DNA of 64,000 bases, from assembly GCF_034259325.1 (NCBI RefSeq), contig NZ_JAXIVS010000001.1:992001-1056000 (forward strand), read 5' to 3'. Below, one piece after another: positions 1-4,785 of this stretch. Each line of letters begins with the position of its first letter. Position 1 is the first letter of the stretch. Both the position numbers and the translations under genes were made by a program. This DNA comes from Hyalangium ruber (GTDB lineage Bacteria > Myxococcota > Myxococcia > Myxococcales > Myxococcaceae). The notes below the pieces were generated by a model. That model had not been told where the DNA came from and did no database searches. It saw only the letters and a program-made list of their open reading frames with translations.

Positions 1-524
1 CGCGCGCCGAGCCGATCGCACACGGTGAACATCTCTCGCGGCTGCAGCATCAGCACGTCGCTGAACTTGAAGCTCACCTGGCCACCGGCGCTGCGCGCCA
101 GCCGCTCCTCGAGCTTCCAGCGGACGATGTCCAGCACCTGCGGCCGCACCTCGCGCGTCAGCTTCACCGGCTTCTGCGGCATGTGGGCGCGCACGGCCTC
201 GGCCAGCACCGAGGGCAACGCGCGCAGCACCACTTCCACCAGCGCCCCACGCTCCTTCTGCAGGAGCGCCGCGAGCTTCTCCGGCTCGGCGCTCCAGAGC
301 TGCCCGCGCCGATCCTTCACCAGCCGCTTGATCTCCTGCACCAGCAGGGGAATGCGCTTCTCGCGCGGGATCTGCATGATCCCCTGCGCGCGGTGCTGCA
401 GCAGCTCGGCCTCTTCAGGCGCCAGCTGCTCCAGCGCGGCCACGCCCTCCTGACCGCCGAAGGTGATGGCGGTCAGCAGCAGCATCGTCTGCCGCTTGTT
501 GAGCGAGGTGAGTAGTTGATCCAA
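1..524 (-). CDS. FliG-like protein of the type III secretion cluster (partial, 3' end outside window)
   Basis: The frame runs off the left edge, so only the first 174 residues are visible. The start is TTG at 522-524, preceded by GAGGT about 7 nt upstream; there is no in-frame ATG between it and the in-frame stop at 579-581. Residues 14-60 read as a helical LLTAI..GGQEGVAALEQLAPEEAELL..RAQGI segment. Residues 83-115 (KLAALLQKERGALVEVVLRALP...AEAVRAHMP) resemble the FliG middle-domain pattern of stacked Leu-rich helices. Residues 150-172 (VSFKFSDVLMLQPREMFTVCDRL) resemble the FliG C-terminal signature in which F-x-FEDL-x-x-LDDR precedes a Leu-rich helix. It follows sctJ, the position held by fliG after fliF in flagellar operons and by sctK in injectisomes. 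The FliG assignment is by eye and could be a divergent SctK; a profile search would settle it. Confidence 0.6.
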   Translation of the reverse strand, partial: MDQLLTSLNKRQTMLLLTAITFGGQEGVAALEQLAPEEAELLQHRAQGIMQIPREKRIPLLVQEIKRLVKDRRGQLWSAEPEKLAALLQKERGALVEVVLRALPSVLAEAVRAHMPQKPVKLTREVRPQVLDIVRWKLEERLARSAGGQVSFKFSDVLMLQPREMFTVCDRLGA

Positions 525-589
525 CGCGCACCTCGCGGGCCTCAGGGCACCGGGATCGAGGAGGCTGCGGACACTCCGTCAGGAGCGTC

Positions 590-1402
590 TCAGGCCTCGG
601 AACGAGGCGGTCGCGCGCGGGCAGGCCGCGCCGCGCCACCGGAAGAGCCTCCGCGCATGAGCACCCAGGCCGACAGGGCAATCATGCCGAGGACGAAGAT
701 GGAGACCACCGCCACCAGCACGCGGAACTGACTGGCGCTGGCCGCCGTCATGCGCAGGCCGAACACGTCCTGCAGGCGGCTCTCGGGGTTGGTCTCCGCC
801 GCGGGCGCCAGCGCCGGGGTCAGCAGCACGGTGACGTTCTCCGGCTTGAGGTCCTGCACCGCCGAGGCGACGAACTGCTTCACTTCCTTCTCGCCCAGGG
901 GCGCCTTGCCCTCCAGGCTGGGCCGGTAGCGGATCATCACCGAGGACGAGGGCAGCGGCTTGTTCTCCGGCTGCGTCAGGTCGTTGTTCTCGGGGATGTT
1001 GACGATGACGTTGGCCTCGAGCACGCCGTCGATCTTGTTGAGGGCGTTGGAGACCTCGCCGCCGAGCGCCTTGAGCGTCATCGCGCGCTCTTCGGCGGCG
1101 GTGGGCACCATGCTGCCCTTGGCGAAGTGGTTGAAGCCCTTCTCCATCGGCCGGGGCAGCGAGTTGCTGCGCAGCAGCTCCGCCGCCTGCGCCGCGTCCG
1201 CCTTGGGCACGACGATGTTGAACTTCATGTCCTGCCCTTCGCCCTCCTTCACCTTGGTGGCGTTGATGCCGTTCTTGCTCAGCAGGACGTAGATTTCGTT
1301 GGCGTCCTGCTCCGTCAGGCCGTGCTGCAGATCAATGGAGCAGCCCGTCACGAGGACCAAGGCCAGGAGCGGGGCGACGCGGGCAAACGATCGGTAAGTC
1401 AT
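590..1402 (-). CDS. sctJ: Type III secretion inner-membrane ring lipoprotein SctJ (YscJ/FliF family)
   Basis: This 270-residue protein starts with a lipoprotein signal (LVLVTGC, lipidated Cys21). The periplasmic ring-building domains follow: residues about 25-85 (LTEQDANEIYVLLSKNGI) and 90-200, with the family's VxGVLEANVIVNIPE stretch. A single membrane helix lies near residues 222-244 (VLVAVVSIFVLGMIALSAWVLM), with a short basic tail. Length and layout match SctJ (YscJ, PrgK, EscJ), which forms the inner-membrane ring of the injectisome and is homologous to part of flagellar FliF. There is no clear ribosome binding site before the ATG. It lies about 130 nt downstream of sctI behind a terminator-like hairpin and is followed by the FliG-like frame. 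The family call is secure. Confidence 0.95.
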   Translation of the reverse strand: MTYRSFARVAPLLALVLVTGCSIDLQHGLTEQDANEIYVLLSKNGINATKVKEGEGQDMKFNIVVPKADAAQAAELLRSNSLPRPMEKGFNHFAKGSMVPTAAEERAMTLKALGGEVSNALNKIDGVLEANVIVNIPENNDLTQPENKPLPSSSVMIRYRPSLEGKAPLGEKEVKQFVASAVQDLKPENVTVLLTPALAPAAETNPESRLQDVFGLRMTAASASQFRVLVAVVSIFVLGMIALSAWVLMRGGSSGGAARPARARPPRSEA

Positions 1403-1462
1403 GTGCGGGGCCTAGCTTAGCGGCGCGAGCGCCCCGTTCCAACATGGGGCCCGGAAAACAGG

Positions 1463-1496
1463 AAGGGCGACCCCTCCACTCAGAGGGACCGCCCTT
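1463..1496 (-). terminator. Rho-independent terminator-like hairpin after sctI
   Basis: AAGGGCGACCCCTC at 1463-1476 pairs with GAGGGACCGCCCTT at 1483-1496 (14-bp stem with two mismatches, 6-nt loop). On the minus strand the stem is followed by a T-rich run containing TTTT. It sits between the sctI stop and the sctJ start, so it may end or attenuate the upstream transcript and limit sctJ expression. Confidence 0.6.
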
Positions 1497-1531
1497 GCCA
1501 GCGCCGCTCGAATGCAGAGCGGACGAGCGAG

Positions 1532-2098
1532 CTACACCTGGGTCTTGACGACGTCCTTGAGGCCGCTGGTGGCCTTCTCGACGACCTTGCTCGTCAGGTC
1601 CAGCTCCTGGGTGTACTTGTACATGGAGGCCTGGAGGCTGAGCAGCTCCGCGTTGGAGAACTGCTTGCCGGAGGCGCCCGCCTTCATGAGCTTCTCCAGG
1701 TTGCCCTGGCCCTTCTCCAGAGAGTCCAACATGGTGGTCATCATGTTGCCCTTCTGGGGCTCGGCCTTGGCGTTGACGGGCTCGGCGCCGCGCGCGGTCA
1801 GCGACTCGCTGTTAGCGCCGTTCACCTTGTTCAGGCCCGCCTTGTCCGTCTTGTTGACGGTCTCGACCTGGCGCACCTGGTCGGCCCGCTGGGTGGCCTG
1901 GGCCGCCTGAGCGGCCTGGGCCTTCTGGGCCGCCTGCGAGGCCTGGACCTGCTCGGGCCCACCCGCGCCCTGAGCCTTGTTAGCGAGAGCCCCGTCGAAC
2001 TTCGAGGGCCCCTGCTTGTTCACCTGCTGCGCGCCCTGATCCTGCAGCTTCTGCTGCGCGATCTGAGCGGCCGAGACGCCGGCCATCGGAGCCGCCAT
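1532..2098 (-). CDS. sctI: Type III secretion inner rod protein SctI (YscI/HrpB family)
   Basis: This gene encodes 188 residues. The ATG at 2098 was chosen because GGAGG lies 8 nt upstream; a longer frame from 2182 has no such site. The first 110 residues are Ala/Gln-rich and low in complexity. The C-terminal 75 residues carry the family signature: a TMLDSLEKGQGNLEKLM helix, then LLSLQASMYKYTQELDLTSKVVEKATSGLKDVVKTQ. That pattern (x-LQ-x-x-x-Y-x-x-x-x-DL-x-SKV-x-x-KA-x-x-G-x-x-x-x-x-K-x-Q) is typical of SctI, which forms the rod joining the inner ring to the needle. The start lies 119 nt inside the 3' end of the sigma-factor gene, so its ribosome binding site is within that coding region and translation may be coupled. 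The long N-terminal extension is unusual for SctI, which is usually 80-150 residues. Confidence 0.85.
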   Translation of the reverse strand: MAAPMAGVSAAQIAQQKLQDQGAQQVNKQGPSKFDGALANKAQGAGGPEQVQASQAAQKAQAAQAAQATQRADQVRQVETVNKTDKAGLNKVNGANSESLTARGAEPVNAKAEPQKGNMMTTMLDSLEKGQGNLEKLMKAGASGKQFSNAELLSLQASMYKYTQELDLTSKVVEKATSGLKDVVKTQV

Positions 2099-2813
2099 GT
2101 GACTGCCTCCTTGCATCGTCAGAGGAAGTGGGAACTTCCTCCTCGTCCAAAAGTTCCTTGAGCCGTTCGATGGCGCGCGCATGCAGCCGCGACGCCCAGC
2201 TCTTCGATTGTCCGATCTCCGCTCCCGCCTCTTCCAACGTCTTGCCGTGGAAGTAGTAGCCCTGCAGGAGCTGCCGCTCCTTGTCCGGGAGCTGATCGAT
2301 CGCCGCCCTTACCCGCCGCTTCAACTGCTCCATCTCCAACCGCTGATCCGCCGGCAGGGACTCATCCACGTACCCCGCCGCGTCCATCCCCTCCAGGCTG
2401 GTGGCCAGCACCATCGCCAGCCCCGTCACCGCGTTGGAGATGTCATTCACATCATCGTCGAATGACCCTCCGCGGTTGCCTCCGCCCTGCTCTCTGTCGG
2501 AAAGATTTCCGAGATAGGCCGCCGCGCGCTCCCCGGCATACGCCGTCCGGGAGTCCGAGCCGCGCAAGATGCCCATTTTCCTCAGGCCGTCGAAAATGGC
2601 GCCCTTGATGCGGTAGTGAGCAAATGTAAGGAAATTGGCGCCAACCTTGGGATCAAAGCGGTCGGCGGCCTCGAGGAGGCCAATCTGACCGTAGGCTACG
2701 AGCTCGTCGATCTCGAGCTGGGCGTTGAACTGCTTGCGGACAGTCGCCGCCAGCGAGCGCACATAGGGCCCGTACTTTTCGAGAATCGCCTTCTTGTCGT
2801 CCCCGAACCCCAA
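1980..2813 (-). CDS. FliA/WhiG-type (sigma-28 class) RNA polymerase sigma factor
   Basis: This is a 277-residue sigma-70 family protein of the group that includes FliA and WhiG. Region 2 is clear at residues about 20-80 (YGPYVRSLAATVRKQ, ELVAYGQIGLLEAADRFDP, FLTFAHYRIKGAIFDGLRKMG). Region 3 follows, and region 4 lies near residues 175-222 (LPDKERQLLQGYYFHGKTLEEAGAEIGQSKSWASRLHARAIERLKELL). The start is TTG at 2813, 8 nt after the upstream stop; GAGTGAG overlapping that stop can serve as ribosome binding site. After region 4 the frame continues about 55 residues (Arg/Gly/Ala-rich), of which the last 119 nt overlap the start of sctI in another frame. The tail may be non-conserved read-on. A sigma factor inside the secretion cluster suggests dedicated transcription of the system. 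Confidence 0.92.
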   Translation of the reverse strand: MGFGDDKKAILEKYGPYVRSLAATVRKQFNAQLEIDELVAYGQIGLLEAADRFDPKVGANFLTFAHYRIKGAIFDGLRKMGILRGSDSRTAYAGERAAAYLGNLSDREQGGGNRGGSFDDDVNDISNAVTGLAMVLATSLEGMDAAGYVDESLPADQRLEMEQLKRRVRAAIDQLPDKERQLLQGYYFHGKTLEEAGAEIGQSKSWASRLHARAIERLKELLDEEEVPTSSDDARRQSHGGSDGRRLGRSDRAAEAAGSGRAAGEQAGALEVRRGSR

Positions 2814-2820
2814 GCGCCGC

Positions 2821-3216
2821 TCACTCAGCCTTAGACCACAGCCGCTCTAGAACCTGGTTGAGTCGCGGGTCTTCCTGCAGCGCGTCGGCGATCTTCGACG
2901 AGAGCGCGGAAGACTTCATGTGCAGCTTCTCCTTGAGGACCTCGGCGACGAGCTGACGCGTCGCCTCTTCCTTGCTCTTGAAGCCCCCGTTCTTGAGCTG
3001 CTTGGCGATGGCCATCGCCTGCGAGGCGATGGGGTCCGCGGCCTGGGCTCCCTGAACGTTGGAAGAGCCCACCAGTCCCGACGGGCCTACGAGCGACTCG
3101 GCCTTGTCGACCTTGCCACCAAAACTGGCACCACCCGCGGGCGCCTTGCCAGACGCACCCTTGGCGCCACCTGCACGGCCCTTACCGCCCCCTCGTCCGA
3201 CTCCACCGACAGACAT
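2821..3216 (-). CDS. Small Gly-rich protein next to the sigma factor (unknown; possible sigma regulator)
   Basis: The product has 131 residues and begins at ATG 3216 with GGAGGAG upstream. Residues 1-45 are Gly/Lys/Ala-rich and probably disordered. Residues 60-131 are predicted helical (DPIASQAMAIAKQLKNGGF, ATRQLVAEVLKEKL, ALSSKIADALQEDPRLNQVLERLW). The gene ends 8 nt before the sigma-factor start, so the two are very likely translated from one message. No family was recognised. A disordered N-terminus with helical C-terminus beside a FliA-class sigma factor recalls the layout of FlgM-type anti-sigma factors, but I see no FlgM signature. A secreted or structural role in the type III system is equally possible. 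Confidence 0.75.
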   Translation of the reverse strand: MSVGGVGRGGGKGRAGGAKGASGKAPAGGASFGGKVDKAESLVGPSGLVGSSNVQGAQAADPIASQAMAIAKQLKNGGFKSKEEATRQLVAEVLKEKLHMKSSALSSKIADALQEDPRLNQVLERLWSKAE

Positions 3217-3248
3217 CGCCGCTCCTCCTTACCGCTGAACTGGTACCG

Positions 3249-3677
3249 CTACTTCTTCGGCGGAGGCAACGCCCCCGCTTCCTTGGCATCCATCAAGGCC
3301 TGAGCCAGCCGCGCCCCGTCACTGTCGGGCTCGATATCCATGGCCGCCTTCAGCTCCTTGACCGCCTCGGGCACCTTGCCCATGAACAGTAGCGCTTCGC
3401 CGGCATGCGCGCGCGGCAGCGAAGCCTCCGGAGCCAACCGCTGGGCCGCTCGGTAGGCCTGCAGCGCCTTGTCGTGGCGTCCCTGGGAGAACTCCAGCGC
3501 GCCCAGCGCCAGCTGCGGCACCTCGCTCTTGGGCATCAGGATCGCCGCGCCCGAGAAGACCTCCTTGGCCTTGTCGAACTTGCCCATGTCCAGCCAGATG
3601 TAGCCGGTCTCGAGCAGGATCATCGCCTGCTGCCGTGCGACTGGAACGATGCTGCCGGTGATCTCCGACTCCGCCAT
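3249..3677 (-). CDS. TPR type III secretion chaperone, LcrH/SycD-like
   Basis: The 142-residue product starts at ATG 3677 with AAGGAG about 10 nt upstream; the frame extends further upstream but without a better site. Three tetratricopeptide repeats cover residues about 20-125: ILLETGYIWLDMGKFDKAKEVFSGAAIL, PQLALGALEFSQGRHDKALQAYRAAQRL and PRAHAGEALLFMGKVPEAVKELKAAMDI. Length and repeat number match class II chaperones of type III secretion (LcrH/SycD), which hold translocator proteins before export, and also the SctG-type TPR proteins. The Gly/Ser-rich protein encoded just upstream is a likely client. The TPR fold is certain; the exact partner is inferred. Confidence 0.82.
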   Translation of the reverse strand: MAESEITGSIVPVARQQAMILLETGYIWLDMGKFDKAKEVFSGAAILMPKSEVPQLALGALEFSQGRHDKALQAYRAAQRLAPEASLPRAHAGEALLFMGKVPEAVKELKAAMDIEPDSDGARLAQALMDAKEAGALPPPKK

Positions 3678-3717
3678 GAGCGTGCTTCTCCTTTTTTCTT
3701 CCAGGTCCGAGAAGGAC

Positions 3718-3746
3718 GGAGGGCGGCACAACGGCCGCCCCCCCTC
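3718..3746 (-). terminator. GC-rich hairpin between the Gly/Ser-rich gene and the TPR chaperone
   Basis: GGGCGGC at 3721-3727 pairs exactly with GCCGCCC at 3734-3740 across a 6-nt loop, and flanking G and C runs can extend the stem. It sits directly after the stop of the minus-strand gene at 3782-4348, with only a weak pyrimidine tract following. It may be a partial terminator or a processing stem that sets different levels for the two genes. Confidence 0.4.
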
Positions 3747-3781
3747 CTGCTCCGAACCCGACTACCCGCTGGCCCGTGAGC

Positions 3782-4348
3782 TTAGCGGATGTTGCCGATC
3801 GAGTTCTTGATCGTATCGTGCCGCGTCTTCATCACGTTGGAAATGGCGGTGAAGCGCTGGCCCTCGTGCTGCAGCTGGGCCTGCATCTTCAGCAGGTTCT
3901 TCTGCTCCTGGAACATGCCGGACAGCTCACCGTTGAACTCGGTGCCCACCGTGCCGTTGGTGCTGCCAATCAGGTTGGTGGACGAGCCGCCCGAGCCACC
4001 CATGCCCGGGATGGCCACGCCGCCCGTGCCGCCCACGGTGGTGCTCAGCGAGGGCACGCCCGTGCCACCCGAGCCGCCGGCGCCGCCGGGCAGCGCGGTG
4101 GAGTACGGGGTGCTGGTGCTGCCCTGCACGCCCGAGGACAGCACGGACATCGAAGAAACCGCCGCCGAGACGATGCCCGAGCCGCTGAACATGCCCGTGG
4201 CCATGCCGACGCCGCTGGACACCGCGCCTGCCGCAGCGCCCACGCCCGCCTCCACTCGCGCGCCGAAGTCGCGCTTCTGCGTCTGGCGCTCCAGCGAGAG
4301 GTTGGTAGACATGCGCGGCTGAGGCCCCATCAATCCATCGACCTTCAT
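3782..4348 (-). CDS. Gly/Ser-rich candidate secreted protein of the type III system
   Basis: The gene encodes 188 residues from ATG 4348 with GGAGG 8 nt upstream. There is no signal peptide, as expected for a type III substrate. The first 30 residues are polar. Residues 34-75 are a small-residue, weakly hydrophobic stretch (AAAGAVSSGVGMATGMFSGSGIVSAAVSS). Residues 80-140 are Gly/Ser/Thr-rich. The last 45 residues form a helix (GMFQEQKNLLKMQAQLQHEGQRFTAISNVMKTRHDTIKNSIGNIR). A C-terminal helix of this kind occurs in needle, filament and translocator subunits, and the next gene downstream is a translocator-type chaperone. I infer a filament or translocator component; no family is recognised with certainty. 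A 10-bp inverted repeat lies in its leader. Confidence 0.7.
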   Translation of the reverse strand: MKVDGLMGPQPRMSTNLSLERQTQKRDFGARVEAGVGAAAGAVSSGVGMATGMFSGSGIVSAAVSSMSVLSSGVQGSTSTPYSTALPGGAGGSGGTGVPSLSTTVGGTGGVAIPGMGGSGGSSTNLIGSTNGTVGTEFNGELSGMFQEQKNLLKMQAQLQHEGQRFTAISNVMKTRHDTIKNSIGNIR

Positions 4349-4455
4349 GATTCTTCCTCCAGGGTTCGGACCATCAATGGTTTAGAGCCCGGCCATTCCG
4401 GCGCTCTCAACAGGGATTATCGCTGATCCAGGGCTCAGGTTGCCTCTACCCCATC

Positions 4456-4489
4456 ATTCCAGCGTCACGAAACTGGCACACGCTGGAAT
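4456..4489. other. 10-bp inverted repeat in the gap between two type III cluster genes
   Basis: ATTCCAGCGT at 4456-4465 is matched exactly by ACGCTGGAAT at 4480-4489, with a 14-nt spacer. It lies 18 nt past the stop of the 92-residue gene and about 110 nt before the start of the Gly/Ser-rich gene. It could be a terminator stem without a T tract, an attenuator, or a binding site. The sequence is less GC-rich than its surroundings. Confidence 0.45.
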
Positions 4490-4506
4490 TCCGGGCACTT
4501 ACGCGA

Positions 4507-4785
4507 TCAGCGACGCCCCTTGGGGCCCTTGGACTCGGCGATCAGACGCTCGCGGGTTTCCAGCAACAGGCCCAGCAGCTCCTCGGCGCTGGCCAACGCG
4601 GTCTGGATCTTCTTGCCCTGCTCGGCCCGGGGACCCTTGAGGGCGTTGAGGCCCTCCTTGATGGGGTTGAAGAGCGATTGGATTTCCTCCGGCGAGGCGT
4701 TCTCGATGAACGACTCCACGGCGGGATAGGAGGGCGTGGGCAGAGCCTCGGGCTCGGGGGCGGGCTGGGACTTGGGGGGAGGCAT
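4507..4785 (-). CDS. Small helical protein at the head of the type III cluster (unknown)
   Basis: The product has 92 residues and starts at ATG 4785 with AGGAGA about 11 nt upstream. The first 25 residues are Pro-rich (PPPKSQPAPEPEALPTPSYP). The rest is helical, with ESFIENASPEEIQSLFNPIKEGLNALKG and TALASAEELLGLLLETRERLIAESKG. Size and composition fit small cytosolic co-chaperones or needle-protein partners of type III systems (SctE/SctG class), but no signature was recognised. It is the first visible gene of the minus-strand run, and a 262-bp divergent intergenic region separates it from the plus-strand gene at 5048. Confidence 0.65.
   Translation of the reverse strand: MPPPKSQPAPEPEALPTPSYPAVESFIENASPEEIQSLFNPIKEGLNALKGPRAEQGKKIQTALASAEELLGLLLETRERLIAESKGPKGRR

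Follow-up and report, generated by a model that had tools for sequence, protein, structure and literature searches.

The gene between sctJ and sctL in a non-flagellar type III secretion system (T3SS) of Hyalangium ruber encodes a divergent homologue of flagellar FliG. The system starts in the window, i.e. the whole 64 kb stretch analysed (C1:992001-1056000, from a genome of 10.8 Mb), and continues beyond its left edge. With a probability of about 75%, we read this FliG homologue as building a non-rotating C-ring in the slot of SctK, and a sigma factor of the same cluster as driving the operon together with a set of needle-like genes. Judged by the published gene list and order (SctD, J, I, Q, R-V, N, L and LcrH-type chaperones), this system is the 'long' myxobacterial ('Myxo') non-flagellar T3SS, that is, T3SS* of Myxococcus xanthus (MXAN_2434-2464), which acts in prey lysis (PMC12075869, PMC10433427): the core sct genes lie in conserved order and, as in M. 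xanthus, no secretin was seen in the stretch examined (the listed 45 kb; the whole genome was not tested for one). Published accounts give the Myxo long T3SS no FliE, FliG, SctF or needle (PMC3459982, PMC12075869, PMC10433427) and describe it as secretin-less and found in Cystobacterineae only (PMC3459982; PMC10433427; PMC12075869). In contrast to these descriptions, we detected a FliG homologue, a dedicated sigma factor with sigma-28-type promoters and SctF-like genes, in a system that reaches beyond the Cystobacterineae.

FliG homology of the protein encoded after sctJ

The FliG-like gene (C1:990605-992524, minus strand) encodes 639 amino acids, the first 174 of which lie in the window (positions 3-524, the frame entering at 524 and running to 3), and its product comprises about 310 folded residues followed by a proline-, serine- and arginine-rich tail. 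Over these first ~310 residues the protein is a divergent FliG homologue, which we regard as settled because of all tests combined, though each single one is borderline for the query. Pfam FliG_C (PF01706) matched residues 151-232 with 26.0 bits (cut-off 23.3) and was also above cut-off in M. xanthus and three further loci (L071, L124 and L127). FliG_M (PF14841) was unreported by Pfam for the query and was aligned by hhalign and by a PDB profile search, the latter placing it at residues 78-144; two relatives that adjoin sctJ in other Myxococcota families (L119 and L120) exceed the cut-offs of both domains. A whole-genome FliG_C search gave no match in the H. ruber genome at E 0.001, though the protein passes the Pfam cut-off; being thus borderline for the single-domain model, it called for profile-profile comparison. 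The top five matches of a profile of 33 orthologues among 177 635 PDB sequences were all FliG (best E 2.6e-5), with the middle and C-terminal domains aligned, and hhalign against 28 flagellar FliG of Myxococcota gave 97.4%, or 98.2% after three divergent relatives had been added, co-linear across all three FliG domains; ten other families of the cluster, used as controls, gave ≤ 2%. Foldseek, run with the AlphaFold structure of the orthologue from M. xanthus (predicted local distance difference test, pLDDT, 87), listed FliG in all of its top 13 places. The first-pass annotation, made from the letters alone, had noticed a likeness to FliG at residues 83-115 and 150-172, which coincide with the profile-placed FliG_M and FliG_C, and its FliG reading stands: the frame enters no unrelated folded domain and is matched by no SctK model.

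Like flagellar FliG, whose gene follows that of FliF and precedes that of FliH, the protein has co-linear N-terminal, middle and C-terminal domains, and its gene sits between sctJ and sctL in all loci with both flanks present. It differs from flagellar FliG in its torque charges (below), an insertion of about 75 residues before the last helix, shortened linkers and, in Myxococcales, the long disordered tail. This tail (L004:5605-6570) varies in length, giving totals of 345-768 amino acids, and often ends in GRGPRGGTR. FliG_C (54-80 bits) is also present in large proteins of 495-627 amino acids (L109-L113) encoded outside flagellar and T3SS clusters, by the markers used; those of the Anaeromyxobacter type (495-516 amino acids) were rejected as bridging forms, there being no T3SS genes nearby.

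Loss of torque charges

At the four positions of the torque helix whose charges meet MotA (264, 281, 288 and 289 in E. coli FliG numbering), true FliG carries K264, R281, D/E288 and D/E289 in 28 of 28 sequences, whereas the FliG-like family has A for K264 (33/33), D for R281 (32/33), K or R for D288 (33/33) and A or S for D289 (33/33). Two of the four replacements are charge reversals, and deep-branching relatives also lack the motor charges. SctQ has the FliM signature LGGxG..R.LTxIE (GGxG motif) in 39 of 42 sequences. On these sequences, the simplest reading is that of a FliG-derived structural adaptor, which would hold SctQ and be unable to engage MotA. The first-pass annotation's 'switch-like protein' holds as to FliG homology and needs amending as to a switch role; 'FliG-derived adaptor' fits better because the torque charges are systematically replaced.

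A dedicated sigma factor and its probable promoters

The sigma factor gene (1980-2813, minus strand) overlaps sctI and lies two genes upstream of sctJ, as had been noted. Its product is FliA/WhiG-like (TIGR02479, 114.5 bits, E 5.8e-33, under the equivalog cut-off of 189.6; a T3SS relative in genome G081 reached 160 bits) and is the only sigma factor of this type in the genome, apart from a match in a 734-amino-acid frame that is probably the housekeeping sigma. In a tree of Myxococcota sequences, T3SS-linked and related sigma factors formed a clade apart from 24 flagellar FliA with 100/100 support. This supports a T3SS-dedicated sister clade of flagellar FliA; of the earlier label, 'FliA-class', the family placement holds and FliA proper does not. 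Unlike FliA, the cluster sigma factor has no recognised FlgM alongside it and, if our reading is correct, would regulate a secretion system without a flagellum. Immediately upstream of its gene lies p131 (2821-3216, minus strand), a conserved small protein found directly upstream of the sigma gene in most related loci and a candidate regulator; its assignment as a FlgM-type anti-sigma factor was unsupported (10% in hhalign, no Pfam match).

Promoters recognised by FliA have the form xAAA-N15-GCCGATAA, and the sigma-28 type is marked by CCGATAA as -10 box behind a 15-bp spacer. The form xxAA-N15-xCCGATAA precedes two classes of gene, the sigma operon (with p188 first) and tandem genes for proteins of 71-75 amino acids, much as FliA promoters precede the filament-type gene for flagellin. 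In the window, GCAAC-N16-CGATAAT (4416-4443, minus strand) lies 68 bp upstream of p188 (3782-4348, minus strand). The pattern GCAAC/GAAAC-N15/16-CGATAAT was found upstream of p188 in 29 of 38 named loci, mostly 57-85 bp ahead of the gene start (over-called starts shift some of these offsets), and had five other matches in 1.54 Mb of strand sequence; within the window the p188 promoter is the only match, with none in 100 shuffles. Across ten genomes (about 100 Mb), a second form, GGAAACT-N13/20-SATAATC, matched exactly 24 times; a needle-like gene of 71-75 amino acids followed 46-64 bp on in 23 cases, and one match was at a contig end. The reversed pattern had no match in the same genomes. In other families the motif precedes sctI (L271 and L277). 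Two matches of a relaxed pattern inside the sigma coding sequence (L062 and L069) were set aside as probable coding conservation.

Recognition by the cluster's own sigma factor is likely because CCGATAA with a 15-bp spacer is a sigma-28-type element; judged by these motifs, the protein most likely recognises the promoters of its own operon and of the tandem needle-like genes. Transcripts of the p188 operon and of the needle-like genes, if made by this sigma factor, would begin just past CCGATAAT. The conserved promoter also offers a ready reporter for the timing of machine assembly.

Needle-like proteins

H. ruber carries its tandem needle-like genes, four identical ones of 75 amino acids and one divergent copy, to the left of the window (L003:2567-7281, C1:974567-979281) and antiparallel to the T3SS operon. 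Across genomes the tandem proteins have 71-75 amino acids, occur in 2-5 copies that are often identical within a genome, and are about 30% identical between genera. Their profile retrieved a T3SS needle chain as best PDB match (E 1.4e-4; next match 0.36). Pfam T3SS_needle_F (PF09392), the commonest Pfam family among members of the tandem and p188 sets, matched 6 of 13 tandem members (best E 4.9e-5; above cut-off in genomes G112 and G002, below it in H. ruber) and 8 of 12 members of the p188 family (best E 0.0026). The p188 protein is Gly/Ser/Ala-rich with a needle-like C-terminal helix, and its C-terminus aligned with the tandem proteins at 96.8% in hhalign. Six-frame T3SS_needle_F searches of whole Myxococcaceae genomes repeatedly picked p188 or the tandem genes. 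In M. xanthus, p188 is accompanied by at least two tandem copies next to sctU. The tandem proteins share with SctF needle subunits (MxiH, YscF, SsaG, EscF) their length of 71-75 amino acids, the C-terminal helix motif and the best PDB match; they differ in their 2-5 often identical copies, in Pfam scores under cut-off in the H. ruber genome and in belonging to a system for which no secretin is known. By this resemblance the 'needleless' system probably has needle-like subunits, and the label needs re-examination because both the tandem proteins and p188 resemble those of T3SS needles.

Proposed mechanism

Prey contact or starvation would induce the cluster, and the sigma factor would then amplify its own operon and the needle-like genes; filament subunits would thus be made under flagellum-like control, since this sigma factor most likely reads both sets of promoters. 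The FliG-like middle domain would hold the FliM/FliN-like SctQ in a non-rotating C-ring that passes on no torque, and the FliG-SctQ ring would attach to the inner-membrane rings, a link that SctK provides in injectisomes. The SctJ/SctD rings, the FliG-SctQ ring and SctN/SctL may together carry effectors and needle-like subunits through the inner membrane, and passage of the outer membrane may use the Kil/Tad system, whose involvement has been proposed for M. xanthus (PMC12075869). The H. ruber machine would presumably also take part in prey lysis.

Several observations weigh against this reading. SctJ has one C-terminal transmembrane segment and then a cytoplasmic tail of about 9-28 residues, without the C-terminal FliG-binding helices of FliF; by analogy with SctK, the cytoplasmic domain of SctD would be the obvious candidate for the membrane partner of the FliG-like N-domain. 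The full-length Foldseek matches to FliG were not individually significant (best E 0.043, TM-score about 0.2); for the C-terminal part on its own (pLDDT 92), FliG again ranked first, at a best E of only 0.14. The -10 box GATAAT could also serve a housekeeping sigma factor. The tandem needle-like genes were not found in Archangium violaceum, and the secretin missing from the listed stretch belongs here too.

Origin and relation to SctK

The myxobacterial system bears on how the flagellum turned into the injectisome. Its basal placement in the injectisome tree was premised on its having no FliG and no needle (PMC3459982), a premise altered by a FliG homologue with replaced torque charges, a dedicated FliA-like sigma factor and SctF-like genes. 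These also give testable handles on which protein links the rings to SctQ, on whether SctK comes from FliG and on what T3SS* puts into or onto prey. We infer that the FliG-like protein and the sigma factor were inherited from a flagellum-like ancestor and not acquired anew. Tentatively, and at clearly less than even odds, Myxococcota may harbour a living link between flagellum and injectisome, a type III machine without secretin whose ring is of FliG-FliM/N type, whose FliG has shed its motor charges and foreshadows SctK, and whose needle subunits are expressed, like flagellin, through a FliA-like sigma factor.

That injectisome SctK descends from FliG, with the FliG-like protein as the surviving intermediate, we consider somewhat doubtful. 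The slot is the same (fliF-fliG-fliH vs. sctJ-X-sctL): SctK occupies it in rhizobial (NolU) and Mycetohabitans (HrpB4) systems and presumably does the same ring-to-SctQ adaptor job, and an earlier proposal, made on functional grounds without sequence evidence, gave SctK a FliG-like role (PMC4045390). Matches of the FliG-like family are strong with FliG and weak with rhizobial SctK (35-83% across alignments, 38% without the Bradyrhizobium member; alignment score 45.5 against 32.9 for the best of 650 shuffles), while SctK against true FliG gave ≤ 2.7%. Against it stands the dependence of the link on the alignment (0.5-83%): the HrpB4 profile gave 0.5%, the SctK signal fell to 22-43% once deep-branching members were included and did not exceed about 2% for deep members alone, and no SctK was among the Foldseek matches listed. 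Because the 83% match fell once these members had joined, descent of SctK from FliG is only suggested.

Capture of the FliG-like protein and sigma factor from a flagellum after the T3SS arose is unlikely. Some Myxococcota do hold a flagellar FliG plus a T3SS FliG-like protein (e.g. genomes G049, G081 and G119), but the pair stands with SctJ at the same place in separate families (f1, f2, f11, f23 and f25) and the T3SS sigma factors group in one clade that excludes the sampled flagellar FliA. A very divergent SctK without any particular tie to FliG, the caution attached to the initial annotation, is very improbable: the sctJ-sctL slot and the rhizobial alignments above the shuffles would agree with it, but neither YscK nor HrpB4 matched the protein in Pfam, YscK had no match at the locus across the phylum, the FliG match of 97-98% is accompanied by deep-branching members that exceed both FliG cut-offs, and the SctK signal wanes as described. 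That the protein still passes torque in a rotating machine, as the presence of both FliG_M and FliG_C and the FliM motif of SctQ might suggest, can be dismissed almost entirely, given the replacement of all four charged positions in 32-33 of 33 sequences, two by the opposite charge, and the absence of flagellar rod proteins from the H. ruber genome.

Distribution and gene content

The FliG-like gene was found in 50 named loci including M. xanthus (L039), all labelled myxobacterial except for mislabelled records or metagenome-assembled genomes. Hyalangium versicolor and other Myxococcales have the nearest sequences. A chance arrangement is excluded because the order p92-p188-TPR-p131-sigma-sctI-sctJ-FliG-like-sctL-N-O-P-Q-fliO-R-S-T-U recurs across these loci, as far as each contig extends. 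Three further families of the phylum, f11, f23 and f25, also have the sigma-sctI-sctJ-FliG-like block, and there the FliG-like proteins have 345-368 amino acids and no disordered tail. Pairs of an SctJ-like and a FliG-like gene (338-339 amino acids) occur in other Myxococcota families (L119:10142-12585 and L120:9792-12173); the surrounding 8-10 kb or so contain no further recognised T3SS gene.

In the window, sctJ (590-1402), encoding the inner-ring lipoprotein (PF01514, 80.6 bits; TIGR02544, 145 bits), and the inner-rod-like sctI (open reading frame 1532-2182, likely start near 2098) lie with the FliG-like frame on the minus strand, as first annotated; sctI is assigned by a weak NCBIfam T3SS_SctI match (15.2 bits, E 0.017) and by conserved order. 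Further upstream on this strand are a tetratricopeptide repeat (TPR) chaperone of LcrH/SycD type (3249-3731, likely start near 3680; TIGR02552, 48.5 bits, under the cut-off of 104.8) and p92 (4507-4785), a small gene of conserved position upstream of the p188 promoter with no match in family profile searches. Beyond the left edge, where the first-pass annotation had suggested inspecting for sctL, sctN, sctQ and a secretin, all but the secretin were found in the stretch examined: the adjoining 40 kb carry, downstream of the FliG-like gene, sctL, sctN, sctO, sctP, sctQ, fliO (previously noted in M. xanthus T3SS*; PMC12248157) and sctR, S, T and U. Past sctU come a stand-alone FlhB C-terminal domain, more small and TPR genes, the opposite-strand needle-like genes and sctV; an FHA protein that weakly matches SctD also lies beyond this edge. 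The stand-alone FlhB domain (93 amino acids, L003:9697-9978) is kept in related loci and resembles extra FlhB-related proteins of some flagella.

The same genome encodes a second, 'short' T3SS (L028/L005, C6:330950-339775), in which neither a FliG-like gene after sctJ nor a sigma-28-type promoter was found; it has its own p188-type gene (155 amino acids) and a FliO-like position. Two tandem, near-identical genes of ~650 amino acids lie left of the T3SS cluster (L026:4753-8840, C1:956753-960840).

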